This document shows, piece after piece, positions 20,490 through 59,508 of a stretch of DNA of 64,000 bases. This stretch comes from an uncultured Bacteroidales bacterium. GTDB lineage: Bacteria > Bacteroidota > Bacteroidia > Bacteroidales > F082. The translations under genes and the position numbers were made by a program. Each line of letters begins with the position of its first letter. Within the stretch, counting starts at the first letter, position 1. Below the pieces are notes generated by a model that was not told where the DNA came from, did not search any database, and was given only the letters and a program-made list of their open reading frames with translations. The stretch is taken from positions 1 to 64,000 of the forward strand of contig CAJOEP010000007.1 in the NCBI GenBank assembly GCA_905233445.1. The letters are read 5' to 3'.

Positions 20490-21055
20490 TATTTGCGACG
20501 CATAATAAGAATAAGTTAGCGGAGATTAGAAATATATTAAAGAATTACGATGTTGTTGGGTTGCGTGATATCGGATGTATGGACGATATTGTGGAGGATG
20601 CCGACACTTTGCATGGAAACGCAAAAATCAAGGCTGATTTCGTGACCAACAACTATCATTTGAACTGTTTTGCCGACGATACTGGGCTTGAAGTCGAGGC
20701 ATTGAATGGAGCTCCCGGTGTTTATTCGGCGCGCTATGCCGGTGAAGGATGCTCGTATCACGACAACGTGGTAAAACTGCTTGCCGCGATGAAAGGAGTA
20801 AAAAACAGAAAAGCCCGTTTTAGAACAGTTATCGCATTGAATCTCAATGGGAAACAATATTTCTTTGAGGGAATAGTAAACGGAAAGATTCTCGAAGAAG
20901 AACATGGCGAAGGCGGCTTTGGCTACGACCCTATTTTCCAGCCGGATGGATATGAGGAGACCTTTGCCGAGATGCCAATGGAAATAAAAAATAAGATTTC
21001 GCACAGAGGAAGAGCGGTGCAAAAACTCGTGGAGTTTTTGAAAGTTGGCAGCTGA
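20471..21055 (+). CDS. rdgB: Non-canonical purine NTP pyrophosphatase (RdgB/HAM1)
   Basis: Hydrolyses ITP, dITP and XTP to monophosphates, keeping deaminated purines out of nucleic acids. Seen: N-terminal [12 protein letters not shown] (residues 8-19), [25 protein letters not shown] (about 68-92, metal-binding Asp) and GFGYDPIF (about 150). The length of 194 aa is normal. It overlaps ung by 19 nt. Its last codons and the stop TGA lie inside a 7-nt-period repeat (21042-21092), so the repeat encodes the final KVGS residues. Confidence 0.96.
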
Positions 21056-21092
21056 CAGTTGGCAACAACTACAAACTGATAATTGCCAACTT
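21042..21092. repeat. Heptad-repeat element, unit GTTGGCA, inverted
   Basis: Degenerate 7-nt units (GTTGGCA, GCTGACA, GTTGGCA) begin inside the end of rdgB. They are mirrored by a right half ending TTGCCAACTT (83-92 of this block), so the transcript could fold into a hairpin with AGTTGGCAA (21057-21065) pairing with TTGCCAACT. It may act as the rdgB terminator. Confidence 0.7.
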
Positions 21093-21125
21093 AAAAAAAT
21101 TTTTCATAAAGAAAAGATTTTTTTG

Positions 21126-21133
21126 TATATTTG
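21126..21133 (+). promoter_or_regulatory. -7 element of the PKD-domain T9SS gene
   Basis: TATATTTG lies 32 nt before the ATG at 21166, after an A/T-rich stretch. The -33 element is weak (TTT near 21102). Confidence 0.5.
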
Positions 21134-21165
21134 CGGATTGATACTGACAATTTAATATTGAAAAC

Positions 21166-24100
21166 ATGAAAAGAATATTTTGGGCTATTGCAATGTTTTT
21201 GCTGGTTATTTCAGCGAAAGCGCAGGATATAAGAAATTATTATACTGTTGAAAACGACGGTTCCATCGAATTGGATATAACCAATTATGAGTTTTACGAG
21301 CGATTTTTCACGGTTTATAATTTATATCAGGATACAGCATTCGAGATTAGCGAAGGCAAAACATATGGTTTGTTCAAAATAAACTCGAGCGAAGACATAA
21401 ACAAGTATTTGAGACAGTTGCACAACGAATTCGGTGAATTGGACAAATATGACTATACCGAATACGTTGCCATCGGGAAAGAGAAATTGCCAAGCAACAT
21501 TGTTACATCAATGTTATTTGATATTTTCATGGAAAACAGCAAGGCTACGACCTTAAACGACCATTGTGTTGACTCGGAGCCTTTCTGCACCTCAGAAATC
21601 ATAACCTTTAATGCTCCTGCAAACAATGCAAATGAAAACATTCCGGATATAGGATGTTTGGGCTCAAAACCTTGTCCTGCATGGTTTCACATGAGGATAA
21701 ACACTCCCGGGCAATTCATCATCCACATGGAAGGTTTGGATCCGAATAACGGAGCTCAAAGAGATATAGATTTTTGTCTTTGGGGACCATTTAATGACCC
21801 GACTTCGCCATGTGTGGCGCAGTTGACATCAGACAAGATCATCGATTGCTGTTATTCGGCAAGTTATTCGGAAAATGCATATTTGGGATATGAAAGCGGC
21901 AATCATGGTCACAGCCATGGAAACATTAATTACCATCTTCCTCAGACTGGTGAGTATTACATTCTATTAATCACTAATTTCTCACAGCAAAACTGTAGGA
22001 TTTCGTTTACCAAGCAGGCCAATTCGGGTCCCGGCACCACTGACTGCTCCATTATTGAGCCATTTTTGACTGCGAACACACCATGTTACGGCAGCAGTTT
22101 GGTGCTTGAGGCTAATGTGATTGAGGGAGCGACATATACATGGACAAGTCCTGACAATCAGACACATAACGGCAGAACGTGGACACGTACCAATGCCACA
22201 CTCAACATGGCGGGACAATACAACTGCCATGTTGTTGCAGGAACACAGAGTGGCGACGAGGGCATCAATGTGTTCGTGCTTCCAAATGTCAACGCTAATT
22301 TCACATTCACAGAGGCGACAGTAGGTGAAGCGGTACAGTTTACCGGCACGGAAACGACAACGCCAGCAGGACATAATTCAGAAATCACTTCAAGACACTG
22401 GGACTTTGGCGATGGCACGAGTAGCTCTGCGGTGAACCCGACACACACATATTCGGCTCCAGGCGACTATCAGGTGACATACACTCTTGCTGTCACTGGA
22501 GGTCATGACGGAGAATGTGGCGACACTAAGACTAAGACAGTGCAGATTAGAAACACGCTGAACGCTACTGTCAGCAGCGACGGGACAAGTTTCTGCGACG
22601 GTGATGCCACTCCAAACCTAACAGCAACGGCGACAGGAGGTTATGGCAATTACACATATTCGTGGACAGCATCTCCGACATGTCCTATTGACTATCCGCA
22701 TTCAGCCACTACAACGGCACATCCGGCAATAGGAACCACAACATTCACATGTGTGATTTCTGACGGTCATTCTTCGCAAACGAAATCAGTAAGCGTGACT
22801 GTCAATCCGATTCCAGACGCGACGATAACAGGTCCTAATCCGCCTCACGTAAACTACGCGGCCTCAACCACTTTATCGGTACCTGAAATGACTGGAGCCA
22901 CATACCAATGGAGTTCAGAGCCGGCCAATATGATACAATCCGGACAAGGGACACACCAGATTCAGACCGCAAGTCTTACTGTTCCCACCACATTCCATGT
23001 AACCGTGAGCAAAAACGGCTGTTCAGATTCTGGTGACTTAACCATTGCTGTAGGCGACGCTCTGTATGGCAATGTTATTATTGTCGGTCAAAATGAACTT
23101 TGCGCCGGAGAGGCGACATCATTGATGGTCAATGCTTCTGGAGGCACTGAGCAATACACTTACAATTGGCAGCCAGCCAACATGATTGAAGGCTCAAACA
23201 CACAGCAAACCATAACTACAACGGCTTTAGATCAGTCGGTGTCATTCACTTGCACGATAACAGACACTGATAATCACACATTTTCAGCAACTTCGCCTAT
23301 AATAACTGTAAATGATATTCCTGAGGCGACGGCATATATTGAAAGCAACGGCACAACTTACCAGACATACAAAATCCTTGCTGGCAATTTTGTCTATTTG
23401 TCGATAAATGAGGTTCCAGGAGCTACATATTCATGGGAGCCGGCAAATCTGATAAACAACTTTATTGGTGAGAACCACAGAATTGCTAAAACCATCAACT
23501 TGCCGGAAAACGACAATACGGTTTTCACAGCCACTGTCACCACTGCAAGTGGATGCTCAAATCAGGACAATTTGACCGTCATCGTTTATAAAGCGTTGGA
23601 CGAGAGTTATTTAACATCGTCAGAATCGGAAGTTTGTGAGAATTCAGCAGTAGTTTTGACAGCACATCCAGATGGTGGCTCGGGCAATTATTCATATCAT
23701 TGGACACCTGAAGGGTATTTTTCGAATCCATATTCACAAACCACGACAGTGCATCCGAATGCAAACCATCACACATACAGTTGCACTATAACGGATGAAG
23801 GCGTCGACGACCACGAAAACAATCGTATCGAGAAGACAATAAACGTTGCTATCCTCGAAAAACCAAGTGTTGACGAGAATTTGATTGGGCAGGCGCAGGT
23901 TCTTCCAGGCATAGACTACATGCCATTCATCTACGAATACAACGTTCGTGTAACGAGTTTACAAGGATATAACATAGAAAATGCTGTTTATACTTGGGAA
24001 CTCTTTAGTTATTACGACACACCTAACCATATTGCCGGCACCTCATATACTTCGACATGGCAGGTTTATGCCGACGAGATTGACAAGAATAAAGCATTTG

Positions 24101-24483
24101 TAGCCGTTGATGAGGAAGGTAACGCTTTATTGGTCTGCACAATAACTACAGATTGCGGAACGACCAGAACCACCAAGTTCATTTACACCGATGGCTACGG
24201 TGAAGGCGCTTCGTTGGAGGAAGTCAATTATGACGATATGATTAACATCTTCCCCAACCCTTCAAGCGGGGACTTATACATAGGGTACAACGATAATCTA
24301 TCGGCAAAACCAATGACTATCAGCATTTACAGCTTCAGTGGGATGCTAATAGCACAGATTTCAGGTGAAACTGGTAATAACGTGACACATTACTCGATGA
24401 ACGGACTTGCCAACGGGTTGTATCTGGTGAAAATAACCGGAGACGATTTCGTCGTGACTAAGAGATTCATACTCAACAGATAG
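21166..24483 (+). CDS. Large T9SS-secreted protein with PKD and Ig-like repeats
   Basis: 1105 aa. Signal peptide MKRIFWAIAMFLLVISAKAQ. Residues about 40-290 contain a Cys-rich region with CLGSKPCPAWFHMRI and INTPGQFIIHMEG, resembling the convertase-type domain often found at the front of gliding/T9SS proteins. A PKD domain at about 375-455 contains SRHWDFGDGTSS and THTYSAPGDYQVTYT. Three or more Ig-like repeats follow, each opening with 'xVxxxGxxxxCxGxxxxL' and containing GGYGNYTYSWTAS, GGTEQYTYNWQPA and GGSGNYSYHWTPE. The C-terminal sorting domain starts at about residue 1024 (INIFPNPSSGDLYIG ... GLANGLYLVKI). It is probably a surface adhesin-like protein. Its stop is only 3 bp from that of the convergent barrel gene. 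Confidence 0.9.
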   Translation: MKRIFWAIAMFLLVISAKAQDIRNYYTVENDGSIELDITNYEFYERFFTVYNLYQDTAFEISEGKTYGLFKINSSEDINKYLRQLHNEFGELDKYDYTEYVAIGKEKLPSNIVTSMLFDIFMENSKATTLNDHCVDSEPFCTSEIITFNAPANNANENIPDIGCLGSKPCPAWFHMRINTPGQFIIHMEGLDPNNGAQRDIDFCLWGPFNDPTSPCVAQLTSDKIIDCCYSASYSENAYLGYESGNHGHSHGNINYHLPQTGEYYILLITNFSQQNCRISFTKQANSGPGTTDCSIIEPFLTANTPCYGSSLVLEANVIEGATYTWTSPDNQTHNGRTWTRTNATLNMAGQYNCHVVAGTQSGDEGINVFVLPNVNANFTFTEATVGEAVQFTGTETTTPAGHNSEITSRHWDFGDGTSSSAVNPTHTYSAPGDYQVTYTLAVTGGHDGECGDTKTKTVQIRNTLNATVSSDGTSFCDGDATPNLTATATGGYGNYTYSWTASPTCPIDYPHSATTTAHPAIGTTTFTCVISDGHSSQTKSVSVTVNPIPDATITGPNPPHVNYAASTTLSVPEMTGATYQWSSEPANMIQSGQGTHQIQTASLTVPTTFHVTVSKNGCSDSGDLTIAVGDALYGNVIIVGQNELCAGEATSLMVNASGGTEQYTYNWQPANMIEGSNTQQTITTTALDQSVSFTCTITDTDNHTFSATSPIITVNDIPEATAYIESNGTTYQTYKILAGNFVYLSINEVPGATYSWEPANLINNFIGENHRIAKTINLPENDNTVFTATVTTASGCSNQDNLTVIVYKALDESYLTSSESEVCENSAVVLTAHPDGGSGNYSYHWTPEGYFSNPYSQTTTVHPNANHHTYSCTITDEGVDDHENNRIEKTINVAILEKPSVDENLIGQAQVLPGIDYMPFIYEYNVRVTSLQGYNIENAVYTWELFSYYDTPNHIAGTSYTSTWQVYADEIDKNKAFVAVDEEGNALLVCTITTDCGTTRTTKFIYTDGYGEGASLEEVNYDDMINIFPNPSSGDLYIGYNDNLSAKPMTISIYSFSGMLIAQISGETGNNVTHYSMNGLANGLYLVKITGDDFVVTKRFILNR

Positions 24484-24486
24484 AGT

Positions 24487-25275
24487 TTACCAGCCCCAGC
24501 AAGAATCGTGTAATAAATTGAATTTCAATGGAAGGCCGATGCTGAACATAACTTCAAAGCCTCTGTTTCTACGGCTTTCGTCAATAACATGATAAGCCAG
24601 ATTATCGACGTAGAATGACTCTTTTGTGCCATTGGTGTTAAGAAGGCCAAGATTATAACTGCCGTCGAGTTTCAAGACAAGCGAAAAAACTTGAAAATGG
24701 ATATTGAATCTGACTCCCACGCCTACTGCGAGAGACAGGTCATACGAACTCATCGCATCTGATTTTGAAATATCCACTGATGTGTTATATTCCGGATTTT
24801 CCGAGAATGTCTTTGAGAACTCACCGCCATAGCACAAACCGAAGTCGGGAGCCGCAAAAATATATGGATTGACAACTGCGGTATGCATAAAATAATACGT
24901 TACCGGTATTCTGATATCAAGATAATTGGCTTTAATCTCGTCAACTTCAGGCATGTCGTTTCTAAAATTGAAGGATTTCCTGAATCCGCGCTCAATCATC
25001 ATCACCTCGCCTGCTATTGAAACAGCTCTTAATCTTTTGAAATGATATTCTACAAAGATGCCGAAGCCTGGTTTCAGCACCATATCGTTGGGGATTTTAT
25101 TGTAAGTTTCGTATGCAAAATGCATATTATAAGATGTCAGACCACCTTTAATTCCGATTGTCGGAACGCTGCTTTTATCGCGTTTATGCTTGACATTACC
25201 AAAACTGTAATCAACCTGAGCTGCCAAAGTCACGCTCACGACAATAAAAACAAATAAAGTCAACAGTTTTTTCAT
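24487..25275 (-). CDS. Outer-membrane beta-barrel protein (PorT-like)
   Basis: 262 aa: signal peptide (MKKLLTLFVFIVVSVTLAAQ), then alternating polar and apolar strands with GIKGGLTSYNMHF near the start, which is the typical opening of the Bacteroidota 'PorT family/outer membrane beta-barrel' group. Later strands include YLDIRIPVTYYF and LSLAVGVGVRFNIHF. The protein ends LPLKFNLLHDSCWGW rather than in the usual final aromatic strand residue. The ATG at 25275 is chosen; the frame extends to a TTG. It follows the lipoprotein gene by 9 bp and is probably in the alaS transcript. Barrel assignment is by pattern only. Confidence 0.75.
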   Translation of the reverse strand: MKKLLTLFVFIVVSVTLAAQVDYSFGNVKHKRDKSSVPTIGIKGGLTSYNMHFAYETYNKIPNDMVLKPGFGIFVEYHFKRLRAVSIAGEVMMIERGFRKSFNFRNDMPEVDEIKANYLDIRIPVTYYFMHTAVVNPYIFAAPDFGLCYGGEFSKTFSENPEYNTSVDISKSDAMSSYDLSLAVGVGVRFNIHFQVFSLVLKLDGSYNLGLLNTNGTKESFYVDNLAYHVIDESRRNRGFEVMFSIGLPLKFNLLHDSCWGW

Positions 25276-25284
25276 ATCAGACAA

Positions 25285-25956
25285 TTATTTAGATTTTCTT
25301 TCAGCGAAATCGGCATGATAATGTTCATAGCCGTTCACATTATAAATTCCGTGAATGAGTGAAGCGAACTCCCTTTCTTTTATGATACTCCAAGTATGTA
25401 TGTTACTGATACCATTCTCACCTATTGTTCCAGTAATAATATTGCCTCTGAAATACCTACAGGCATCTGTGCCTTGTATATTTTCATAGCAAATCATGAA
25501 ATCTTTGCTGTTATTTTCAGAATAAACATCTCCATAGATATATGCTTCAGCTTCGTACCATTCCTTATAATCATTGTTTCTTTTAAAAGAAAACCTTATT
25601 TTTGCCATTCCGTTGACTTGGTCTTCGATGATAATATACATCGACTTCGGTGAGTAGGCCATCTGAGGAAGTTGTACATATTGTTGAGTTTGCATATTAT
25701 AATACTCATATGTTCCATCGCCATTTGATGCGTTCATCTCATACTCGCCTATCAAATCAGGCGGGAAGCGGCCATCTTTCACCTTCGGACTAATTCCATT
25801 GGGGAAATAATTCTCAGGATAAACCTGATAATAATGTTTTACGTTGCTCTCATCGCCGATAAAAGCGAGGGTGTTGTGGTTGTCTTTTGAGCAACCTGAC
25901 AGAAACATTATCGTTCCCAGTACAACACTTAATATGGCAAAAAGTCGTTTCAGCAT
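25285..25956 (-). CDS. Hypothetical lipoprotein
   Basis: 223 aa. Lipoprotein signal peptide MLKRLFAILSVVLGTIMFLSGC with lipobox LSGC (Cys 22), followed by SKDNHN. The mature part has no motif I recognise; it contains PPDLIGEYEMN (about residue 65) and a beta-rich pattern such as MYIIIEDQVNGMAKIRFSFKRN. It starts 2 bp after the alaS stop and is followed by the barrel gene after 9 bp, so the three genes are likely co-transcribed. The lipoprotein and barrel could work together at the outer membrane, but this is inference from position only. Confidence 0.8.
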   Translation of the reverse strand: MLKRLFAILSVVLGTIMFLSGCSKDNHNTLAFIGDESNVKHYYQVYPENYFPNGISPKVKDGRFPPDLIGEYEMNASNGDGTYEYYNMQTQQYVQLPQMAYSPKSMYIIIEDQVNGMAKIRFSFKRNNDYKEWYEAEAYIYGDVYSENNSKDFMICYENIQGTDACRYFRGNIITGTIGENGISNIHTWSIIKEREFASLIHGIYNVNGYEHYHADFAERKSK

Positions 25957-25958
25957 GA

Positions 25959-28580: not shown

Positions 28581-28607
28581 TAAAACATTTTTTCTTTTAA
28601 AAGTTTG

Positions 28608-28635
28608 CAAATTTAAGAAAATTTTGTTAATTTTG
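28608..28635. promoter_or_regulatory. Divergent -7 elements of alaS and the M23 peptidase
   Basis: TAAATTTG on the minus strand (28615-28608) points to alaS. TAATTTTG on the plus strand (28628-28635) points to the M23 gene. Neither has a clear TTG at -33. The two are only 12 bp apart, so the RNA polymerase sites would overlap and compete. Confidence 0.5.
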
Positions 28636-29665: not shown

Positions 29666-30007
29666 ATGGAAATCAAGAAGTTATATTATCGTATTGGAGA
29701 AGTGGCGGAGATGTTCAACGTTCCTGCCTCAACAATTCGCTATTGGGAAAGCGAGTTCGACGTGCTACGTCCGCGCAAGAACAATAAAGGCAACAGACTG
29801 TTCACCGAGCGCGACATGCGGTATCTTCAGATTATATATCAGCTTGTAAAGGTGAAAGGATACACCATCCAAGGTGCGAAGGACGCGATGAAGACCAAAT
29901 TTGACAGCCTAGAAAAGAACGCCATGATGATTAGGACGCTCAACGACGCAAAGACGTTTTTAGTTGATTTGGATAAGAAGCTGGCAGAGAAACAGAAACA
30001 AGTTTGA
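29666..30007 (+). CDS. MerR-family transcriptional regulator
   Basis: 113 aa. Winged-helix N-terminus YYRIGEVAEMFNVPASTIRYWESEFDVL (residues 7-34) matches the MerR HTH, followed by GNRLFTERDMRYLQIIYQLVKVKGYTIQGAK (wing and second helix pair) and a short coiled coil (LEKNAMMIRTLNDAKTFLVDL). No cysteine effector site, so the signal is unknown. Typical for the short Bacteroidota MerR proteins paired with M23 peptidases. A heptad inverted repeat separates it from the convergent hldD. Confidence 0.9.
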   Translation: MEIKKLYYRIGEVAEMFNVPASTIRYWESEFDVLRPRKNNKGNRLFTERDMRYLQIIYQLVKVKGYTIQGAKDAMKTKFDSLEKNAMMIRTLNDAKTFLVDLDKKLAEKQKQV

Positions 30008-30062
30008 AGTTTGGAGTGTGGAGTTTGTAGTTAACTTCACACTTCAAACTCCACACTCCAAG
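30002..30062. repeat. Heptad-repeat element, unit GTTTGGA, inverted, between convergent genes
   Basis: Left half: 7-nt units of the GTTTGGA type. Right half: 7-nt units of the TCCAAAC type. A perfect 17-bp inverted repeat, TTGGAGTGTGGAGTTTG (30011-30027) against 30045-30061, with a 17-nt loop. It lies between the merR stop (30007) and the hldD stop (30066), where it could act as a bidirectional terminator. Confidence 0.85.
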
Positions 30063-37431: not shown

Positions 37432-37474
37432 ATTTAAGATTTAAAAATTCAAAATTTAAAATTTAAAGATTTAA
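37432..37474. repeat. Heptad-repeat element, unit ATTTAAA
   Basis: About six A/T-only 7-nt units (ATTTAAG, ATTTAAA, ATTCAAA types) with one phase shift, filling the 41-bp gap between the patatin gene (stop 37471) and pyrH (start 37429). The unit is nearly the same as at 55594-55635. ATTTAAA is almost self-complementary. Confidence 0.7.
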
Positions 37475-39714
37475 AACCAGAAGCCGACATTGACAAAGCC
37501 GACTGCCGACGAATTGATGTTTGAAGCCATCAAGCTGACCTCGACGGGGCCGACAACCGTATTCGCGCCAAGTGTCAGACCGGCACCCATGACATAGCTG
37601 TTGCTGTCGAACCATTTGTCGTAAACATCGCTCATATAGCCGAAATCGCAGTGGACAGTGCTGTAGAAAATCTTATAGAAATTCCACTGCCATGCGAATT
37701 TTCCGATAGCGATATGGTCAACGATTTTATCGACAAAACCGAGGCCTGTGAACGCCAAAATATTGTCGTAATACTTCATTTTCGACTGTCCGCCTATCAT
37801 AAACTGATAGAACAGAGGTATTTCGGCATCACCAATCTTGCTGCCAGCTGCCAGACCAAACTTCAGCGAGTTGCGCCTGCCTACTCTAAACGCCTTCATC
37901 ACACTTCCCTGCACCAGAAACGACACTCTGGCATCAGCATTGCTAAAAACTCCGCCGTCGTTTTCCCCTTCAAACAAAAAGCTCTTTCCAGTAAGGTTTA
38001 TTCTCCAACCGCGACTGGCGAAATTCGGGACATCCTCATTGCTGAAGAAATAATTGGCATAAAGATAGGTATAGAATGTGTAATTCGGTTTTAGACCGCT
38101 TTCTCCGACCAAATCTCGCATATGGACATAATCGGCGACTGCACCCAGACGAATCTGTTGTGTTAAAGATGGTATAATTTGACCATAAAGGTTCAGGCTG
38201 TTAGTCTGAATACTATAAGAATTTGTGATTCGGCTATTTATGTACTGATTCATATTCAACGATATGATACTCAAATCGGCGCCATATCTGAAAACTCTTC
38301 CATGACGCTTGTTGATAGTAGCCTTCACATACGGATTCTCGGCGATATTGACATCAATATTCAATGTGGTGCGATTCATGCTATTCCAAAGGTTTTTCAT
38401 GGTGAAATTCACCAATGCACCTATGCCGTAGTTGTTGTCATAATGAATGGCAAACGAAACCGATTCGTCCTCGCGCTCGGTGCAATGCAGTTTCAGCACG
38501 ACACCATTTTTGTCGTTTTTCATTTCATACCACAAATCCTCGTAATATCCTGATGCATAAAGTCTTAGAATAACTTCCTGGATTTCGTCAACCGACAATT
38601 TCATTGGGAAGACTTTACCAAACTCACGGACCACATCATCTCTGTGTTTAATTGCGATACCATCCACCAAAACTTCCACAACATTCAGAGTATCAACAGG
38701 TTGTACATGCGGACGATGGATTTCGTAAGGCTCAATTTCCTGAAGATGTTGAGCAAGTTTTTGCAGTTGCGGATAAAACTCCTGTGCGGCTTCCTCACCA
38801 AATTGGATAATTGAATCAAAATCGTTGAACGACAGCATATTACGCCCATGAAGATTTGGTCGGATATAGATATCGCAGTGAGAGCGGGCATATAAACTTT
38901 CGGAAAGTGACGAAAGGTTCATCATGCTTTCGAGAAGCCCGAGCGAGTTGTCGATTTGCGAGGCTGGAATTGTAGCGTCTTCCAAATCGACACCGATAAT
39001 AATGTCAGCTCCGTGATTCTTCATATTCCTGACCGGGAAATTGTTGACCATTCCACCATCAACGAGCAGCTTGTTTTCCATAGCCACCGGTTTGAAGAAG
39101 AATGGTATCGACATGCTCGCCCTCACCGAACGAGCAAGGTTGCCTTTTGTCATCTCATACTGGCGGGCATGTTCAACATCGGTAGCAATACAGAAAAACG
39201 GAACAGATAACTTATTGAAATCGTGTATGTTGCTTGCCGGAAGCATCAGTCTTGACATGAGCAGATTGACATAAACGCCATCAACCACCGACGATTTAAC
39301 CTTCAGCTTTCCATTCATTATCGGGAATGTCCCAAGATATTGACGCTCAAACATTTTCTGTTCGACTGGCATCAGGATGCGAGGAACTTTATCGTAAATC
39401 ACCTGGTCCCAATCCTGAGCGCGCACCATCTTCTCAATCGTTTCAGGGTCATAGCCGACGGCGTAGAGGCCTCCCATGATTGAGCCGATGCTCGTTCCCG
39501 CGATGTAATCGACTGGGATTCCAGCCTCATCTATCGCCTTTAGCACTCTGATTTGCGCAAATCCTTTGGCACCTCCGCCGCAGAGTACCACTCCGACTTT
39601 AGGACGATGACGAACAGTATCATTAACTGATTGAGCTTCAATATTATAGACAGATAACACGCTGATTAGCACAATCAGTATTAAAAATCTGATATTTTGA
39701 TTGATATCATTCAT
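37471..39714 (-). CDS. Patatin-like phospholipase fused to POTRA and outer-membrane barrel (copy A)
   Basis: 747 aa. Signal peptide (MNDINQNIRFLILIVLISVL...EAQ). The patatin domain (about 35-320) has oxyanion loop [11 protein letters not shown], catalytic GTSIG (GxSxG, about residue 76) and Asp in VDGGMVNNFP (about 204). A POTRA-like unit at about 335-405 includes VEVLVDGIAIKHRDDVVREF, followed by an outer-membrane beta-barrel to the C-terminal Phe (VGFVNVGFWF). This is the layout of PlpD-type (type Vd) autotransported lipases. The ATG at 39714 is chosen over an upstream TTG. It is a tandem paralogue of the gene at 39725. Substrate unknown; possibly membrane lipids. Confidence 0.93.
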   Translation of the reverse strand: MNDINQNIRFLILIVLISVLSVYNIEAQSVNDTVRHRPKVGVVLCGGGAKGFAQIRVLKAIDEAGIPVDYIAGTSIGSIMGGLYAVGYDPETIEKMVRAQDWDQVIYDKVPRILMPVEQKMFERQYLGTFPIMNGKLKVKSSVVDGVYVNLLMSRLMLPASNIHDFNKLSVPFFCIATDVEHARQYEMTKGNLARSVRASMSIPFFFKPVAMENKLLVDGGMVNNFPVRNMKNHGADIIIGVDLEDATIPASQIDNSLGLLESMMNLSSLSESLYARSHCDIYIRPNLHGRNMLSFNDFDSIIQFGEEAAQEFYPQLQKLAQHLQEIEPYEIHRPHVQPVDTLNVVEVLVDGIAIKHRDDVVREFGKVFPMKLSVDEIQEVILRLYASGYYEDLWYEMKNDKNGVVLKLHCTEREDESVSFAIHYDNNYGIGALVNFTMKNLWNSMNRTTLNIDVNIAENPYVKATINKRHGRVFRYGADLSIISLNMNQYINSRITNSYSIQTNSLNLYGQIIPSLTQQIRLGAVADYVHMRDLVGESGLKPNYTFYTYLYANYFFSNEDVPNFASRGWRINLTGKSFLFEGENDGGVFSNADARVSFLVQGSVMKAFRVGRRNSLKFGLAAGSKIGDAEIPLFYQFMIGGQSKMKYYDNILAFTGLGFVDKIVDHIAIGKFAWQWNFYKIFYSTVHCDFGYMSDVYDKWFDSNSYVMGAGLTLGANTVVGPVEVSLMASNINSSAVGFVNVGFWF

Positions 39715-47948: not shown

Positions 47949-48599
47949 ATGAATGAACAAGAGACCGCTTTAGCGTTAGCGAATTTCCTGCTGCAAATTA
48001 AAGCAATAAAATTGAATCCTGCAAGTCCTTTTACATGGGCGAGCGGATTAAAGTCACCTATTTATTGTGACAACCGCATAACATTGTCATATCCGAACAT
48101 CAGAACATTCATCCGCGAGGCGTTTGTGAAGATGTGCACGGAACGTTACGGCAAGCCGGATTTGATAGCAGGCGTCGCCACCGGTGGCATCCCGCAGGGC
48201 GCTTTAGTGGCCCAGGAAATGGGACTTCCGTTCTGCTACGTGCGTTCGGAGGCGAAGTCACACGGCTTGAACAACCAGGTTGAGGGCATTGTGCCACAGG
48301 GAGCTTCCGTTGTGGTCATCGAAGACCTTGTTTCGACAGGAAAATCAAGCCTTGCAGCCGTTGAGGCACTTCGCGAGAAAGGTGCCAACGTGAAAGGAAT
48401 GATGGCTATATTCACCTACCAGCTCGACGCTGCGGCAGAGGCGTTCAAGAAAGCCAAATGCGACCTCGTGACCATCAGCAATTACGAAGCTTTGATCAAG
48501 AAAGCCGTTGAGGAGAATTATGTCAGCGACGACCAGATGCAGAGCCTAATGGAATGGAGAAAGAGTCCGCAGGCGTGGTCGGACGCACATCAAAAATAG
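47949..48599 (+). CDS. pyrE: Orotate phosphoribosyltransferase
   Basis: About 216 aa. It joins orotate and PRPP to form OMP in pyrimidine synthesis. Seen: FTWASGLKSPIYCDNRITLSYP (about residue 26), PQGALVAQEMGLPFCYVRSEAKSHG (about 83) and the PRPP loop VVVIEDLVSTGKSSL (about 121). The ATG at 47949 is chosen; 21 further codons upstream are open but cross the -7 element and the Nudix gene. The stop TAG is the start of a heptad array. Confidence 0.97.
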   Translation: MNEQETALALANFLLQIKAIKLNPASPFTWASGLKSPIYCDNRITLSYPNIRTFIREAFVKMCTERYGKPDLIAGVATGGIPQGALVAQEMGLPFCYVRSEAKSHGLNNQVEGIVPQGASVVVIEDLVSTGKSSLAAVEALREKGANVKGMMAIFTYQLDAAAEAFKKAKCDLVTISNYEALIKKAVEENYVSDDQMQSLMEWRKSPQAWSDAHQK

Positions 48600-48632
48600 T
48601 TAACAGTTACCAGTTGACAGTTAGCAGTTAAA
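48598..48632. repeat. Heptad-repeat element, five tandem AGTTNNC units
   Basis: Five perfect-phase 7-nt units (AGTTAAC, AGTTACC, AGTTGAC, AGTTAGC, AGTTAAA) begin at the last two bases of the pyrE stop codon. Positions 1-4 never vary. They fill the gap to the next ATG at 48643. Confidence 0.85.
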
Positions 48633-52209: not shown

Positions 52210-52211
52210 TC

Positions 52212-52883: not shown

Positions 52884-52885
52884 AA

Positions 52886-52965
52886 GCCATTAGCCACTAG
52901 CTATTAGCCATTAGCAATTTTACTAACGACTAAAAACTAATGGCTAATGGCTATTTCCTAATGGC
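52886..52965. repeat. Heptad-repeat element, unit GCCATTA / TAATGGC, inverted, between convergent genes
   Basis: The left half has at least five 7-nt units of the GCCATTA type; the right half has four units of its complement TAATGGC (52938-52965), the last ending exactly at the valS stop codon (52966). The units GCCATTA/TAATGGC also make up the element at 59449-59508. Together the halves can form a long hairpin between the two convergent stops. Confidence 0.88.
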
Positions 52966-55593
52966 TTATTTTCTCATTGCCGCCATCTGCTGCATAATCA
53001 CAGCAATTTTCGCTTCGGCGTCAGATTTCTTTTTGCGTTCCTTTTCAACCACAGCGGCCGGAGCTCCGTTGACGAATTTCTCGTTTGAGAGCTTAGCCTC
53101 AACAGATTTCAGGAAGCCTTGGGCATATTTCAGTTCCTCTTCGAGTTTCTTCAACTCAGCTTCGGTGTCGACCGAGTCGGTCACCGGGATGAAGTATTCC
53201 TTAGAGCGCACGATGAAGCCAAAAGCATCAGTTGGCTTTTCAGCAGTATAAGTTATTGATTTAACGTTAGTTAACTTCTCGATGATGCAGTCAAAGTCCT
53301 TGTTGGCAGTGCCGTTGTCGATGACCACCAAATCCAGAGCCTCCTTGAACGAGATGTTCTTCTCGGCGCGGATCTTACGGATGTTGTTGATTACATCCAT
53401 GGTGAAATCGAACTGTGCAAGTACCTGATTGTCAACAGGTTTCTGCTTAGGCTGCTGTGCAATGATGATATCGTCGCCAGCTTTTCTTTCATCGAGGTTA
53501 TGATAAATCTCTTCGGTGATGAACGGCATGAACGGATGCAGGAGCTTCATCAGGTTCTCGAAGAAAGTGACTGTGGCTCTGTAAGTTACGCCGTCGACAG
53601 GCTGTCCCATAGGGGCTTTCACCATCTCGAGATACCAAGAGCAGAAGTCGTCCCAAGTGAGCTTGTAAACACCCATCAAGGCATCGGAGAGACGGTATTT
53701 CTCGAAGTTGTCGTTCATCTCGGCCAAAACCTGGTTGTAACGAGCGTCGAACCACTTCACGGCCATCTTGGCGGTATCTGGTTGAGCGGCTTTTTCATCG
53801 ACGGTCCAGCCTTTCACAAGACGGAGGGCGTTCCAAATCTTGTTACAGAAGTTACGTCCCTGCTCGCAGAGTGCCACGTCGAACAAAATATCGTTTCCGG
53901 CTGGAGCCGAGAGCAGCATTCCCATACGCACACCGTCAGCGCCGTAGTTCTCGATGAGCTCAATCGGATCAGGAGAGTTTCCTAATGATTTCGACATCTT
54001 ACGGCCGAGCTTGTCGCGCACGATACCGGTGAAATACACGTTGCCGAACGGAACTTTTCCCTGGTACTCCTCGCCTGCCATAATCATACGGGCGACCCAG
54101 AAGAAGATGATGTCAGGAGCGGTGATAAGGTCGTTGGTAGGATAATAATATTTGAATTCTTTGTTGTCAGGGTCGAGGATGCCGTTGAACAGCGAGAGAG
54201 GCCACAGCCATGAGCTGAACCATGTGTCCAAAGCATCGTCATCCTGACGCAAATCGTTGATTGTCAGATTGTTGTTACCAGTTTTCTCTTTAGCCAATTT
54301 CAACGCTTCTTCTGGTGTTTCGGCGACCACAAATCCGCCCTGAGGCAGATAATACGCCGGAATCTGATGTCCCCACCAAAGCTGACGGCTGATGCACCAA
54401 TCCTTGATGTTCTCGAGCCAGTGGCGGTAAAGGTTGACATATTTTGCAGGATAGAACTGAATCTCGCCAGTCTCGACAGGCTTCAGCGCGATCTGAGCGA
54501 GGTGTTCCATCTTGAGGAACCACTGCATCGAGAGCTTCGGCTCAATCGGGACGTTGGTGCGCTCAGAATATCCCACCTTATTATTATAGTCTTCAACTTT
54601 TTCGAGCAAATCAGCTTCCTTGAGGTCGATGACAATCTGCTTGCGCACTGCCTCGCGGTCCATTCCGACGTACATTCCAGCTGCCTCGCTGATTGTAGCA
54701 TCGTCATTGAAGATATTGATACTCTGGAGGTTATGTTTCTCTCCAAGCATGTAGTCGTTGACATCGTGAGCCGGAGTCACTTTCAGGCAGCCTGTACCGA
54801 ACTCGATATCGACATATTCGTCTTCGATGACCGGAATCACGCGGTTCACCAACGGAACGATGACTTTCTTACCTTTCAAATGCTGGTTCTTCGGGTCATT
54901 CGGATTGATACACATTGCGGTGTCGCCCATGATTGTCTCAGGACGTGTTGTAGCCACCACTGCGTATCCGTTTTCGCCTTCGATTTTATATCTTAGGTAA
55001 TAAAGCTTGCTATGTTCTTCTTTGTAGATGACTTCCTCGTCGCTAAGTGCTGTGAGAGCCTTCGGATCCCAGTTGACCATGCGAACGCCTCTGTAAATCA
55101 AGCCTTTTCTATAGAGGTCGCAGAACACTCGGATGACGCTTTTTGAGCGGACTTCGTCCATGGTGAACGATGTGCGTTCCCAGTCGCATGAGCAGCCTAG
55201 TTTACGGAGCTGTTTCAAGATGATGCCTCCATGCTCATGTGTCCAGTCCCAAGCGTGTTCAAGGAATTTCTCACGTCCGATGTCGGTCTTTTTGATGCCT
55301 TGCTGAGCCAACTTATTGACAACCTTAGCCTCTGTAGCGATTGAGGCGTGGTCGGTACCCGGCACCCAACATGCATTCTTACCCATCATTCTGGCGCGAC
55401 GCACCAGCACGTCCTGAATTGTGTTATTCAGCATATGGCCCATGTGAAGCACGCCGGTAACATTCGGTGGCGGTATCACGATGGTGTAAGGTTCACGCTC
55501 GTCAGGAGTTGAATGAAAATAATTCTTTTTTATCCAATGCTCATACCATTTCTCTTCAGTAGTCTGCGGACTATATTTGCTCGAAAGCTCCAT
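52966..55593 (-). CDS. valS: Valyl-tRNA synthetase
   Basis: Class I synthetase of about 875 aa. HIGH-type signature [14 protein letters not shown] (about residue 41), the editing (CP1) region with [22 protein letters not shown] loop [14 protein letters not shown] (about 532), the anticodon domain and a C-terminal coiled-coil arm ([29 protein letters not shown]). The ATG at 55593 is chosen over an upstream TTG. Its predicted leader is a heptad array (55594-55635) that begins at the base next to the ATG. Confidence 0.98.
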
Positions 55594-55635
55594 ATTCAAG
55601 ATTTAAGATTTAAAATTTAAAATTTAAAGATTTAA
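55594..55635 (-). repeat. Heptad-repeat element, unit ATTTAAA, forming the valS 5' leader
   Basis: Six 7-nt units in perfect phase on the plus strand (ATTCAAG, ATTTAAG, three ATTTAAA, GATTTAA). The array touches the valS ATG on one side and ends 5 bp from the valS -7 element TAATTTTG (55647-55640) on the other, so nearly the whole 5' UTR would be made of repeats. Same unit as at 37432-37474. Confidence 0.85.
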
Positions 55636-55639
55636 ATTG

Positions 55640-55647
55640 CAAAATTA
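55640..55647 (-). promoter_or_regulatory. -7 element of valS
   Basis: TAATTTTG on the minus strand, 47 bp before the valS ATG. The divergent transporter promoter begins only 10 bp away. Confidence 0.5.
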
Positions 55648-55656
55648 CATTTTTTC

Positions 55657-55688
55657 TTGTTCGGATTAATTTTTTTTTATTATTTTTG
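55657..55688 (+). promoter_or_regulatory. Promoter of the POT-family transporter
   Basis: TTG (55657-55659), 21 bp, TATTTTTG (55681-55688); ATG at 55714, about 20 nt leader. Confidence 0.65.
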
Positions 55689-55713
55689 TACGATTTTTAA
55701 ATACTTTAAATTT

Positions 55714-57414
55714 ATGTCATTATTATCTATTGCAAATTTGTGGCAGACCAACCGCACATTGGTGATTTTGATTGGCATTTTGATTGTCGTCGTCCCATTT
55801 TTGGTCTATTACCTGAATCAAGCTAAGAAATACCATCCCAAAGGCTTGATTGCAGCAGCATTAAGCAACATGGGCGAGCGTTTCGGATATTACATCATGA
55901 ACGCTATCCTTTTGTTGTTCCTCGTTTCAAAATTCGGTTTGCCGGACAAGACCGCCAGTATCATCTACTCGGTGTTCTACTTCGGAATCTACGTATTGAG
56001 TTTGGTGGGCGGTATCATCGCTGACCGCACTCAGAACTATCCGAGAACCATCCAGTGGGGTTTGATTATCATGGCAGCAGGTTATGTCGGACTGGCTATC
56101 CCGTTGTTCAGCAAGGACGCAAACGGCATCATTCTTGACAGCGGCGGCGCATGGTGGGGCATCTTAATATTCACTTGCTTTGCATTGCTCTGCATCTCGT
56201 TCGGTAACGGTTTGTTCAAAGGCAACCTTCAGGCTCTCGTAGGCAAGCTTTACGACAAGTTCGAGGCTGAGGCGGCAAAGAATGGTCCTGAGGCATTAGC
56301 TGAGGCTAAAGACCGTCGCGACAGCGGTTTCCAGATTTTCTACGTGTTCATCAACATCGGCGGTGTTATCGCTCCATTTGTGGCTCCTATGCTCCGTAAC
56401 TGGTGGTTGAAAGCTCACGATTTCGTTTACAATGCAGACATGCCGGCTCTTTGCCATCAGTTCCTCGCCAATGGTGAACAAACGACAAAGTTCACCGAAA
56501 ACATGGCCAAATCACTTGTTGAAGGCGCAGCGACTCCAACCGACCTCGTGACATTCAGCTCAAGCTATATCGACGTGTTCAACACAGGTGTTCACTATGC
56601 ATTCATCGCATCAGTTGTTGCTATGATGATTTCGTTGGTGGTGTTCCTCTGCACAAAGAAGATTTTCCCTCAGCCTTCAAAGAAAGAGAAAGCTGAAGTC
56701 ATTGAATACACACAGGAGGAAAAACTCGCGATGGCGAAAGAAATCAAACAGCGTCTCTACGCTTTGTTTGCAGTTCTCGGCATCGCCATCTTCTTCTGGC
56801 TCTCATTCCATCAAAATAGCCAGTCGTTGACATTGCTGGCCCGCGACTTCGTGGTGACAGACTTCTTCCCGGCTGAAATTTGGCAGGCGCTCAACCCATT
56901 GTACGTCATCATCCTCACCCCTATCGTGATGGCAGCATTCGCTTGGTTAGTGAGAAAAGGTAAAGGCGTTTCAACACCTCGCAAGATTGCTTACGGTATG
57001 GGCATCGCAGGTTTGGCTTACCTCTTCCTGATGGCTCTTTCAATCTCATGTGGTTATCCTTCAGGCGACGAGTTCCGTGCGATGGATGCCGCCACAATGG
57101 AAGCACAGGGTCTCGCAAAATCAGGACCATGGGTACTTATCGTTACTTACTTCTTCCTGACAGTCGCTGAGTTGTTCATCTCGCCTCTCGGACTTTCATT
57201 CGTTTCGAAGGTGGCTCCACGTCACATGGTTGGCTTGTGCCAGGGTTTGTGGCTTGGTGCGACAGCTATCGGCAACTTGTTCATCTTCGTCGGGCCTCTC
57301 ATGTACAACGCATGGAGCATCTGGATTTGCTGGGGCGTGTTCCTCGCAATCTGCGTGGTCTCAATGTCGGTGATGTTCGGCATGGTGAAATGGCTGGAAC
57401 GCGTAACCGCATAA
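55714..57414 (+). CDS. POT/PTR2-family proton-coupled peptide transporter
   Basis: About 566 aa with 12-14 hydrophobic segments. The family front motif GERFGYYIMNAIL (about residues 55-67, with the ExxER/GERFxYY signature of proton-coupled oligopeptide transporters) is clear, followed by IYSVFYFGIYVLSLVGGIIADR. A mid-protein hydrophilic region (about 325-355, KKIFPQPSKKEKAEVIEYTQEEK) divides two halves. It probably imports di- and tripeptides. The ATG at 55714 is chosen; the frame extends 19 codons to a TTG inside the promoter. Confidence 0.9.
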   Translation: MSLLSIANLWQTNRTLVILIGILIVVVPFLVYYLNQAKKYHPKGLIAAALSNMGERFGYYIMNAILLLFLVSKFGLPDKTASIIYSVFYFGIYVLSLVGGIIADRTQNYPRTIQWGLIIMAAGYVGLAIPLFSKDANGIILDSGGAWWGILIFTCFALLCISFGNGLFKGNLQALVGKLYDKFEAEAAKNGPEALAEAKDRRDSGFQIFYVFINIGGVIAPFVAPMLRNWWLKAHDFVYNADMPALCHQFLANGEQTTKFTENMAKSLVEGAATPTDLVTFSSSYIDVFNTGVHYAFIASVVAMMISLVVFLCTKKIFPQPSKKEKAEVIEYTQEEKLAMAKEIKQRLYALFAVLGIAIFFWLSFHQNSQSLTLLARDFVVTDFFPAEIWQALNPLYVIILTPIVMAAFAWLVRKGKGVSTPRKIAYGMGIAGLAYLFLMALSISCGYPSGDEFRAMDAATMEAQGLAKSGPWVLIVTYFFLTVAELFISPLGLSFVSKVAPRHMVGLCQGLWLGATAIGNLFIFVGPLMYNAWSIWICWGVFLAICVVSMSVMFGMVKWLERVTA

Positions 57415-57416
57415 CA

Positions 57417-57473
57417 GACTTTAGACGTTAGATATTAGACATTAGTAGAGACGCCATAATATGACGTCTCTAC
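57417..57473. repeat. Heptad array GACNTTA plus copy 2 of the dispersed hairpin
   Basis: Four 7-nt units (GACTTTA, GACGTTA, GATATTA, GACATTA; 57417-57444) follow the transporter stop. They are joined directly to a hairpin with a 9-bp stem GTAGAGACG/CGTCTCTAC (57445-57473). The hairpin core is almost the same as the tRNA-Asp terminator at 588-610, but here no T-run follows on either strand. Confidence 0.85.
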
Positions 57474-57491
57474 ATTTAAAAAAATAGAATT

Positions 57492-57812
57492 ATGAAAAAT
57501 CTATCAAAAGAAGAATTTGAAGTTTATTGCCTCTTTATTGCGGCAAATGCCGACTTCAACATCACACGCCAGGAACTTATCGAGATGGGTGCCGGCACCA
57601 ATCCGGAGTTATTCATAAAGGTGTACAACGGATTCGAGGCTGACAGCGACCTTCAACGGGTTGAAACCATTGAAGAATGCAAGAAATTGTACATCAAGGA
57701 CGAGCTCGACCGTCAGGATCTTTTTGACAAGATGAAGAAGGTGTTCTTTGCCGACGGCAAGTTCCAGGCTGCGGAGCAAAGTATTTTCACAATGCTAAGG
57801 AAGCTTATTTAG
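57492..57812 (+). CDS. Small helical protein, TerB-like
   Basis: 106 aa, no signal peptide, all-helical pattern. The C-terminal LDRQDLFDKMKKVFFADGKFQAAEQSIFTMLRKLI resembles the TerB/DjlA-type acidic helical domain, where 'FxADGxFxxxE' occurs. N-terminal SKEEFEVYCLFIAANADFNITRQEL has the same repeat, so it may be two half-domains. Function unknown. A free-standing gene between the transporter and a T9SS protein. Confidence 0.72.
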   Translation: MKNLSKEEFEVYCLFIAANADFNITRQELIEMGAGTNPELFIKVYNGFEADSDLQRVETIEECKKLYIKDELDRQDLFDKMKKVFFADGKFQAAEQSIFTMLRKLI

Positions 57813-57861
57813 GCTTTAGAAAAACAAATTTCATTATAATATTATTAATTTAAAAACACTT

Positions 57862-59442
57862 ATGAAGAAATCATTACTATTTGCGTTGCTTATGGTGCTT
57901 ATTGCTCCATTTGCCATGTATGCCCAGGAATGGAATTACGTTAATTCCTTTACAGCTACGACAGGCCGTCAACATGCTGTAGTTTATGACGGTGAGTTTA
58001 TTTACACAGCCGCTTGGGGTAAGTCATCTACAGTGGCCTCTATGTTCTACAAGTATGACATGAGCGGCAACTTACTTGAGGAATTTGATGTTCCTGGAGT
58101 GAGCAATTCTGACAATTATTCACGTGATTTGACTTACGACGGACAGTATTTCTATGGATGCGACGCCCATTCGGGTACAATTTGGTGCTATGACCTACAC
58201 AACAAGACATTGGTTAGTTCGAACTGCATCAACACTAATTTAAATGAACTTGGCACTTGCACTTACGACCCTACTGAGGATGCTTTCTGGGTTGGTGAGA
58301 GAGCTACAGGCAGCAGCCCGAATCTACATCTCAACTTGAAACTCGTCGGTCGCAATGGTCAGGTGATTAAGACTGCAACAGCAGCAAACCTCGGTGGCCA
58401 CACTGTTCACGGAACAGGTTATTTTGTTGATGACAACGGTGGTCAACACATCCTGCTGTTTGCCGTTGAAGGCTTCACAGCCCATGTTTTCGACTATAAC
58501 ATTGACACTGACAGCATGACACCAAACTACATCTTCGATTTCTCGTCGACACCAGGATGGGGTCCGGCAAGTTCAGCAGGCGGTGCATACATTGGCGTAG
58601 TCGATGGCACACAGTATTTCTTTGGCGATGTTGACAAGAGTCCTAACCTCATCGGAATATACGCTCTAGGCGCATACACTCCTGTCGTCCCTACTCCACC
58701 AGAGGGAGACATCTTCTTCGATTTTGAAGACGGCATCATGCGTTGGAACACCATCGACGCTGACGGCGACGGCTTCGACTGGGAAATGAGAGCTATTTAT
58801 GCTGTTCCTGGCAACACGCATTGCGTCACATCAGCATCGTTCGACGATTGGACACAAACAGTGCTGTTCCCCGAAAACTATCTCGTAACACCTTATAAAC
58901 TCGATTGCGAACAGATAACATTCAAGGCTCAGGCACAGGATAATCTGCATCCGAATGAGCATTTCGGAGTTGCTGTTTCAACTACAACAGGCGCTTCAGC
59001 AGAAGACTTCGAGATTGTTTGGGAAGCTGATTTGACAAGTAAAATAGTTGGCGATTGGTACGATTACAATATCGACTTAAGAGACTATCAAGGACAGGAC
59101 ATTTATGTCGCCATCGTCCACTTCAACTGCACGAACCAGTTCTCAATCAACATCGACGACATCATGCTCCACAGAGTTTTTGATCCTACTTTCGATGTGG
59201 CTGAAAATTCAGCAAGCATGGTAACGGTGTATCCTAACCCTGCAAGCGAAAAGGTGATGGTTGAGAGTAATGTTACCGTAAATCAATATGAGATTTACAA
59301 TGTCGCTGGTGAGCTGATTATCAGCATGCCTGTCAACGAGAAATCGTTTGAAATCAACGTTAACGAACTTCCAGCAGGCACTTATCTCATCAAGATGGTG
59401 TCGGATGGCATGGTTCAGACAAGACGTTTTGTTAGACGTTAG
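57862..59442 (+). CDS. T9SS-secreted protein with choice-of-anchor J (cleaved adhesin) domain
   Basis: 526 aa. Signal peptide MKKSLLFALLMVLIAPFAMYAQ. Residues about 25-270 look like a propeller: repeated DGEFIYTAAW, YDGQYFYGCDAH and YDPTEDAFWVGERA. A choice-of-anchor J/cleaved-adhesin domain (about 283-440) contains FDFEDGIMRWNTIDADGDGFDWEM and ENYLVTPYKL ... FSINIDDIMLHR, similar to the adhesin domains of gingipain-type proteins. The C-terminal sorting domain begins about residue 455 (VYPNPASEKVMVES ... LPAGTYLIKMV). Probably surface exposed; ligand unknown. The gap to the convergent RsmI-like gene is a heptad element. Confidence 0.9.
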   Translation: MKKSLLFALLMVLIAPFAMYAQEWNYVNSFTATTGRQHAVVYDGEFIYTAAWGKSSTVASMFYKYDMSGNLLEEFDVPGVSNSDNYSRDLTYDGQYFYGCDAHSGTIWCYDLHNKTLVSSNCINTNLNELGTCTYDPTEDAFWVGERATGSSPNLHLNLKLVGRNGQVIKTATAANLGGHTVHGTGYFVDDNGGQHILLFAVEGFTAHVFDYNIDTDSMTPNYIFDFSSTPGWGPASSAGGAYIGVVDGTQYFFGDVDKSPNLIGIYALGAYTPVVPTPPEGDIFFDFEDGIMRWNTIDADGDGFDWEMRAIYAVPGNTHCVTSASFDDWTQTVLFPENYLVTPYKLDCEQITFKAQAQDNLHPNEHFGVAVSTTTGASAEDFEIVWEADLTSKIVGDWYDYNIDLRDYQGQDIYVAIVHFNCTNQFSINIDDIMLHRVFDPTFDVAENSASMVTVYPNPASEKVMVESNVTVNQYEIYNVAGELIISMPVNEKSFEINVNELPAGTYLIKMVSDGMVQTRRFVRR

Positions 59443-59448
59443 TTTATA

Positions 59449-59508
59449 GCTATTATCTATAAGCCATTAAGTATTAGCCATTAGGTTTTCAGAAGCTAAT
59501 GGCTAATA
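59449..59508. repeat. Heptad-repeat element, unit GCCATTA / TAATGGC, between convergent genes
   Basis: Six or so units (GCTATTA, TCTATAA, GCCATTA, AGTATTA, GCCATTA) after the T9SS stop, then an inverted half GCTAATGGCTAATA. The stop codon of the convergent RsmI-like gene (59503-59505) lies inside the right half. Same heptamer family as 52886-52965. Confidence 0.85.

Follow-up and report, generated by a model that had tools for sequence, protein, structure and literature searches.

In this work we characterize a family of tandem heptanucleotide arrays in the spacers of an uncultured Bacteroidales bacterium (GenBank assembly GCA_905233445.1), taking as our starting point positions 1 to 64,000 of contig CAJOEP010000007.1 (64,000 nucleotides; hereafter the window). 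The arrays keep a strict period of seven and draw on a small number of degenerate sequence themes. They adjoin stop codons, they are oriented, and, where inverted, they place the strand that reads AG first, with two arms that share a theme without mirroring each other. From one sister species to the next, an orthologous position may gain or lose its array, and at times it holds an array of another theme. We tentatively read this combination as the outcome of two processes: (i) the copying of units from other arrays onto DNA ends, and (ii) selection that keeps terminator-like hairpins.

A seven-nucleotide period in the spacers

A sequence-only reading of this DNA had listed eight spacers of degenerate heptamers, four of them inverted. 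Both statements hold when the sequences are read, the inverted loci being 21042, 30002, 52886 and 59449. Across 25 spacers of the window, compared with dinucleotide shuffles, the signal is raised at lag 7 (z 12.8), lag 14 (z 9.1) and lag 21 (z 7.4). Lags 8, 22 and 15 are likewise up (z 5.9, 5.3 and 3.3), consistent with slips by a single base from 7, 21 and 14. Taken singly, six spacers are significant at lag 7 (30008, 37430, 48600, 52884, 55600 and 57415), and a seventh, 59443, at lag 14 only; spacer 21042, which holds three units and extends into the open reading frame (ORF) of the ITPase (Ham1), is not significant singly at lag 7. At gathering thresholds, Rfam returns a single tRNA and nothing else in the window.

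The genome-wide excess on which the sequence-only reading had staked its claim is present. In a sample of 864 kb (35% of the genome, with genes called by a simple longest-ORF script), 70 intergenic segments were found at lag 7, 44 at lag 14, 28 at lag 21 and 9 at lag 28, as against at most 7 at each of the other lags from 3 to 30. Ten further lag-7 segments lie inside called ORFs. At a lower threshold there are 80 lag-7 segments, compared with a shuffled mean of 0.45 (maximum 2 in 20 shuffles), and 62 of 352 sampled spacers carry one. In having a heptamer period above chance, mainly in spacers, the arrays are like the intergenic repeats of the long simple sequence repeat and STRR type.

Few themes recur, with fixed and free positions

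The same reading had supposed a different heptamer at each locus, and here it was mistaken: GTTGGCA and AGTTNNC are a single theme, and themes recur at many loci. Three consecutive AGTTNNC units (at most one mismatch) match 364 times genome-wide versus once for the reversed pattern, and ATTAGNN triplets 127 times versus 0 for the control, both being counts of overlapping triplets rather than of arrays. Further themes are AGACNTT, AGTKTGR, AGATAAR, AGAGTAR and an AT-rich ATTTAAA type. Of 167 arrays in all, the 27 without an AG form were excluded from the theme and orientation counts.

Within a theme, some positions are fixed and others free. In 38 AGTTNNC arrays, the difference between units of the same array is, position by position,.04,.05,.02,.02,.56,.48 and.14. 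In 24 AGWCNTT arrays, position 5 varies at.71, near saturation, while four positions stay at or below.02, and 10 AGATAAR arrays vary chiefly at position 7. The free dinucleotide of AGTTNNC is drawn from a restricted palette (GG 59, AC 35, AG 17; GC 2 versus 20 expected). Themes can also switch in register inside one array, as in AGTTTGA AGTTTGA AGTTTGG AGTTTGA AGTTAGC AGTTGGC AGTTACC. Such switches are seen at L016:5257–5309, from AGTTTGR to AGTTNNC, and at L023:2150–2182, from AGTTTAR via AGTTTGA to AGTTGGC.

These patterns modify two ideas of the sequence-only reading. Firstly, the period is indeed not tied to one repeat, several themes sharing it, but the palette is specific to the genome and the heptamers are not independent from locus to locus. 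Secondly, that reading had favored a process over the spread of one mobile repeat; spread within the genome is nevertheless part of the explanation, since the themes are dispersed with a genome-specific palette.

Arrays adjoin stop codons and are oriented

Tandem spacers with an array were taken from three genomes. In 57 of 68, the array overlaps the upstream stop codon or has its edge no more than 6 nt away; in 22 of 68, the start codon is equally close to the array. TAG is the stop at the array edge in 26 of 63 cases, compared with 132 of 645 genes, although here edges from three genomes are set against genes from this genome's sample alone. At one locus in the window the TGA stop of the ITPase gene (21053–21055) falls within the heptamer array itself.

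In 137 of the 167 arrays (79 expected), a conserved AG/CT recurs at a fixed phase. Single arrays in tandem spacers place AG on the sense strand 35 times and on the antisense strand 10 times, arms without clear orientation being excluded. The rule is stricter in inverted arrays: the AG strand comes first in 17 of 17, including two in divergent spacers. A purine-first rule is insufficient as the source of this order, because this genome's own inverted arrays are purine-first in 10 cases and pyrimidine-first in 10, with 2 ties.

The arms of inverted arrays were compared at 16 of the 17 loci. Both arms carry the same theme in all 16 pairs (judged by eye), two of them with a partial change in one arm. 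The order of units is not shared: AGTTNNC arms (8 loci) match their own partner at 0.469 and the arm of another locus at 0.487, and all 16 pairs match at 0.411, versus 0.452 when one arm is shuffled. The second arm thus does not seem to have been copied from the first, and fold-back copying between the two is, on this evidence, unsupported.

Arrays are gained, lost and re-themed between relatives

The valS gene, which adjoins two of the arrays, is 95–96% identical (best segment) to that of four Bacteroidales metagenome-assembled genomes and 91% identical to that of Candidatus Limimorpha caballi. These identities place the host near Candidatus Limimorpha, as a Limimorpha-like gut Bacteroidales. 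The array habit is strong in this clade: the 16.3 kb of intergenic sequence from 17 related loci (valS identity at least 80%) holds 18 lag-7 arrays, and the 62.6 kb from 63 other Bacteroidales loci holds 6. In the spacers of those 63 valS loci (L036–L100), the commonest periodicity is lag 22 (22 intergenic segments), and not 7.

Exact AGTTNNC triplets, again counted with overlaps and not as arrays, are patchy in the genus: they number 231 in this genome, 168 in the related genome G010, 46 in G034, 37 in G030 and 24 in G014. The remaining 31 same-genus genomes searched hold 0–11, and G060–G064 none. The G010 stretches were chosen for AGTTNNC hits, and their array density is biased accordingly. 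An AGTTNNC triplet occurs in 96 of 395 Bacteroidota genomes, a loose count given that the reversed control also matches some genomes and in a few (with perfect GACAGTT arrays) is as frequent.

Orthologous gene junctions were compared among five species (reciprocal best hits, at least 50% identity). Among 460 junction pairs, which are non-independent, arrays are present in both members of 12, in one only of 53 and in neither of 395. Co-occurrence is above chance (odds 7, with the same non-independence). The theme differs, by eye, in four of the 12 both-array pairs, at the positions (slots, numbered by window position) 52883 and 57414.

Three slots illustrate the turnover. At slot 30007, a 58-nt inverted AGTTTGG array stands in this genome. 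The spacer is missing from G060 and G062, whose stop codons overlap, while G061 carries a 127-nt hairpin repeat and G063 an 86-nt inverted GTTAAAA-type array that falls below threshold. In its last codons the upstream gene varies between these alleles, as if overwritten. At slot 52883, the theme is ATTAGCC here and TTTAGTC in G060, and unrelated palindromes stand in G062 and G063. At slot 57414, the theme is ACNTTAG here, TTTARAG in G060 and WTAANAG in G063, with a shorter remnant in G061. In G060 and G063, a palindrome and leader at this slot are identical at 55 of 56 nt and are followed by a CTAAACT-type (G060) or TTATCTT-type (G063) array of 32 or 33 nt, counted by eye; in the sense direction these arrays give the TTTARAG and WTAANAG themes. 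Slot 57414 is a case of concerted change or replacement. At a fourth slot, 37432, G060 carries an AT-rich array comparable to that of this genome. Arrays are, in sum, gained, lost and sometimes re-themed at orthologous slots between sister species.

Proposed copying onto DNA ends, and the alternatives

In the reading that we tentatively adopt, new arrays would form on the 3' ends of DNA left by breaks or stalls within spacers, in short copying steps templated by arrays elsewhere in the genome. The DNA end would re-align through a short anchor of a few bases, AG or TAG, and advance by one unit. If both ends were extended and then joined, a head-to-head array would emerge, with the AG strand first, one theme and unmirrored arms, much as in two fused telomeres; extension of a single end would give a direct array. 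The stop codon would bound the array since deeper loss harms the gene. Inverted arrays at gene ends would be retained by selection as terminator-like hairpins, while direct arrays would be filler of the 3' untranslated region. Such end copying predicts (i) the AG-first order, (ii) a theme shared by both arms, (iii) independent unit order, (iv) gain of arrays as blocks, and (v) in-register theme switches. We also count in its favor the lack of extra likeness between adjacent units, the variation confined to set positions in AGTTNNC, AGWCNTT and AGATAAR arrays, the genome-specific palette, the attachment to stop codons with its share of TAG, the sense-strand bias of single arrays, and the no-spacer and 58-nt alleles at slot 30007. 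The one-strand-first order (17 of 17) and the unmirrored arms (16 pairs) are features expected of end-addition arrays of the telomere-fusion kind; that copying and joining took place is our inference from them.

A number of results weigh against this reading. No donor copy was found, and no event was caught. None of seven genomes has a match to Ku, and RVT_1 is matched in four of the seven only, with none in G010 (84% complete), G060 or G061; neither result thus points to a known enzyme for adding or joining ends. In the AGTKTRR group (30 arrays), positions do not fall sharply into fixed and free ones, and AA/TT (152 v 102) and AC/GT (100 v 67) are over-conserved in the 167 arrays besides AG/CT. 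Units two apart are identical slightly more often than after shuffling (0.301 v 0.250), as are units three apart (0.308 v 0.258), a trace, as we see it, of 14- and 21-nt duplication, and a point for some duplication. Themes are the same or similar (by eye) in eight of the 12 both-array pairs, and one same-theme pair is identical at 40 of 40 nt in two species whose four-fold sites are 66.5% identical; many arrays are, therefore, simply inherited. The expectation of the sequence-only reading, that in orthologous spacers period and length persist while the heptamer changes, is accordingly borne out at slots 57414 and 52883 but not in these eight pairs. Lastly, 7-nt-step indels between two Cyanothece strains, described in the part of PMC4679880 drawn on here, speak for slippage there.

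Two specific machineries find little support. Ku end joining is disfavored by the lack of a Ku match in all seven genomes, and a dedicated reverse transcriptase by the lack of an RVT_1 match in G010, G060 and G061, some of these genomes being incomplete. Of the enzyme copying by seven that the sequence-only reading had offered, a reverse transcriptase is thus not clearly needed: the genomes without an RVT_1 match include G010, which is rich in arrays.

Replication slippage that favors 7 nt (through polymerase contacts with DNA), combined with point mutation of local seeds that drift, is a possible but doubtful alternative. It accounts for a period that is independent of sequence, and for the lengths of same-theme orthologous arrays at slot 13497 (82, 34 and 30 nt); the likeness of units two and three apart and the published Cyanothece indels are also in its favor. 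Single 7-nt slippage steps predict, however, that adjacent units should be the most alike, and the observed pattern is the opposite. In the 115 of 167 arrays covered by this comparison, adjacent units are identical at 0.223 versus 0.245 after shuffling within the array, so that neighbors are not more alike than chance, and near-exact, neighbor-alike units of the kind that slippage leaves were not found. Slippage by single steps, a form of the slippage that the sequence-only reading had named among possible generators, is not supported in that role. Nor does drift from local seeds sit well with variation restricted to set positions in several themes, or with few themes and a genome-wide palette in place of many seeds; the AG-first order and the same-theme, unmirrored arms are not predicted by it at all.

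It is rather unlikely that the arrays persist by selection for a repeated motif, with a protein reading fixed positions (e.g., AGTT..C) in RNA or DNA every 7 nt while the free positions drift. MacGregor proposed the S1, Csp and Csr families as candidate readers of the heptamer TAACTGA (PMC4679880, in part). The contrast of fixed and free positions, the sense-strand bias of 35 to 10, the attachment to stop codons, and the 96 of 395 Bacteroidota genomes with an AGTTNNC triplet (some control matches occurring too) all suit a reader. On the other hand, several themes per genome and the replacement of themes at a slot would require several readers, 53 of the 65 array-bearing orthologous pairs have an array in one species only, and G060–G064 are devoid of AGTTNNC triplets.

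Folding bears on a further explanation, namely that the arrays are plain terminators, under ordinary selection for 3' hairpins, and look repetitive only incidentally. Among spacers of 35–160 nt with an array, RNA hairpins (z below -3) are predicted for 14 of the 15 convergent ones, 21 of the 51 tandem ones and 1 of the 15 divergent ones. For spacers lacking an array, the figures are 32 of 47 when genes converge and 8 of 95 when they diverge (all counts back-computed from fractions). The convergent figure, and the different hairpin elements that occupy the same slots, agree with such selection. In non-array hairpins of the 63 other Bacteroidales loci, moreover, the purine-rich arm is mostly first (30 v 7 in convergent and 16 v 3 in tandem spacers), so hairpin polarity is not special in itself. 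Yet the inverted arrays of this genome are AG-first without being purine-first, the lag-7 excess (80 v 0.45) is unexpected for terminators, and the low divergent and tandem counts do not suit them. Direct arrays, too, fold no better than shuffles (mean z -0.25, 114 segments). We consider this explanation highly improbable. A U-run is present at some array loci (e.g., 59447–59508) and absent at others. The idea that G-U wobble lets the AG strand alone fold, through self-pairing of AGTT and TTAG, was rejected, this strand scoring lower than the other in 35 cases and higher in 32, with 47 ties. Hairpins stand where a 3' end is needed and unrelated palindromes occupy the same slots; we read this as an array-making process that runs regardless, with selection retaining those of its hairpins that are useful.

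Least credible by far is a REP-like element moved by a Y1 (RAYT-type) transposase: Y1_Tnp genes occur in five of the seven genomes and array slots are shared with palindromic repeats, but G060 and G063 have arrays with no Y1_Tnp match, the transposases at 12 loci are flanked (by eye) by other, GC-rich palindromes and not by an array as their own element, a heptamer array lies near the transposase only at loci L176 and L178, where it is at the next gene's promoter, and the arrays have no fixed ends or length.

Slippage, then, explains the period and the changes in length and not the rest; selection on a motif or a hairpin explains part. End copying also has a bolder form, speculative and in our view unlikely: that the clade adds genome-specific degenerate heptamers to broken or stalled 3' ends, which are then joined head to head in the manner of telomere healing and fusion, that the spacers are scars later recruited as terminators, and that the same process lies behind the heptamers of other phyla.

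Array loci and neighboring repeats

Four loci of the window are inverted. The short AGTTNNC array at 21042–21092 precedes an A/T run and reaches into the 3' end of the ITPase gene (Pfam Ham1p_like). An inverted AGTTTGR/AGTGTGG array (30000–30060) separates the convergent genes for a MerR-type regulator and an epimerase. Between the convergent LUD-domain gene and valS lies an inverted ATTAGCC array (52885–52971), in whose right arm the inner units change to AGTCGTT/AGTTTTT. The fourth, at 59447–59508 between convergent genes, is a degenerate ATTAGNN array with an inverted right arm and a T run.

The other four read on the plus strand. Two are AT-rich: an ATTTAAA/ATTCAAA array without an AG form, between two minus-strand genes (37432–37476), and an ATTTAAA/AAGATTT array (55594–55646) between valS and a POT-family transporter gene, which diverge from it. 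The direct AGTTNNC array at 48595–48631 begins within the TAG stop of the upstream plus-strand gene, and the direct AGACNTT array at 57416–57445 lies immediately 3' of the transporter stop codon.

Abutting this last array is a 29-nt palindrome, GTAGAGACG...CGTCTCTAC (57445–57473). Palindromes of this 28–29 nt type (GTAGRGRCG-N10/11-CGYCYCTAC) occur at 33 other places in the genome, 34 in all, with 0 matches to a control pattern. Their outer arms are constant, while the inner part is variable yet nearly always itself palindromic, and they are frequently joined to AGACNTT-type arrays. Nothing relevant to them appeared in the literature among the matches listed.

Other repeats were seen nearby. 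The divergent spacer at 62508–62680 holds another dispersed-looking repeat, of CGCAGATCT type and period 9; in G063, the same slot holds an inverted AGACNTT array. Hairpin repeats of ~130 nt, GTCATTTCGAGCG...CGAAATGAC, stand in array gene-end slots of sister species (the L024:6635–6770 region, slot 30007 of G061 at L022, and others). GC-rich palindromes, TTGCCCCTTCGGGGCG and GTGCCTCCGGCAC among them, flank single-gene, RAYT-like Y1 transposases (L175–L186).

Relation to known heptamer repeats

Cyanobacterial STRR repeats are heptanucleotide tandem repeats between genes, and by that description the present arrays, as intergenic tandem heptamers, are like them. In eukaryotic head-to-head telomere fusions, inverted arrays are formed in which one strand always comes first, as it does here. 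The comparison does not extend to a telomerase, to chromosome ends or to a constant template, and in the present arrays several themes coexist.

The sequence-only reading knew of no equivalent in Bacteroidota. This was partly wrong: TAACTGA heptamer repeats have been described from Beggiatoaceae, Cyanobacteria and five Bacteroidetes, the last with other heptamer repeats as well (MacGregor 2015, PMC4679880; this and the papers below are cited from parts of their text). The likeness is considerable: the opposite strand of TAACTGA reads AGTTATC and falls within the AGTTNNC theme, and the repeats are intergenic, patchy across species, able to overlap the upstream stop codon, accompanied by other heptamers in some Bacteroidetes, and absent from the same neighborhood in some close relatives. 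However, TAACTGA units are mostly exact, related heptamers are rarely repeated, one case is inverted, and in the Guaymas genome the repeats directly precede start codons, the sense strand reading TAACTGA. The present arrays are degenerate, of several themes, at stop codons, with the AG strand in sense, and often inverted; they are not made of exact TAACTGA/AGTTATC units, AT being 2 of the 137 first dinucleotides in adjacent AGTTNNC pairs of our own sample.

Long simple sequence repeats show a heptanucleotide excess and are mostly intergenic (Mrazek 2007, as reported in PMC4679880 and PMC4692102), and the standing idea for why seven is favored ties slippage to the length of DNA contacted by the polymerase (PMC4679880 and PMC4692102; credited to Mrazek 2007 in the former). 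The present arrays share the favored unit and the intergenic setting, but their units are degenerate at set positions and neighbors are not the most alike. The GGGAATC (Xanthomonas) and GGGGAYT (Nostoc) repeats are also degenerate, dispersed between genes, in some cases inverted between convergent genes, and variable in length and sequence between related species at shared sites (Rehm 2015, PMC4692102). They differ in being G-rich, with a quadruplex focus and one theme per genome, and theme replacement is not described in the part of that paper drawn on. Four- and five-fold heptanucleotide elements of Geobacter metallireducens (PMC2700814) are tandem and genome-dispersed, one class having the consensus MTYCTGA; unlike the present arrays, they are fixed-build families found by BLAST and proposed as regulator sites, and a 49-member GGGACCG-type family lies inside genes as well as between them. 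PMC4060949, in the part consulted, adds nothing on heptamers. Heptamer repeats as such are, therefore, already known. Theme replacement at orthologous slots, the one-strand-first order (polarity) and unmirrored arms were not found described in the open-licence literature, as far as its text was accessible.

Seven is the favored unit in long bacterial simple repeats, and slippage does not predict the orientation rule and unmirrored arms of this clade. Simple copying slippage does not fully explain spacer arrays that adjoin stop codons and are strictly oriented. Since close relatives differ by gain, loss and occasional re-theming of arrays, the question of why seven is favored can be put to the test in strain pairs and metagenomes. 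For these bacteria, our results suggest that gene 3' ends are built from interchangeable repeats—heptamer arrays, 28–29 nt palindromes and other hairpins—such that the hairpin is kept while its sequence is replaced.

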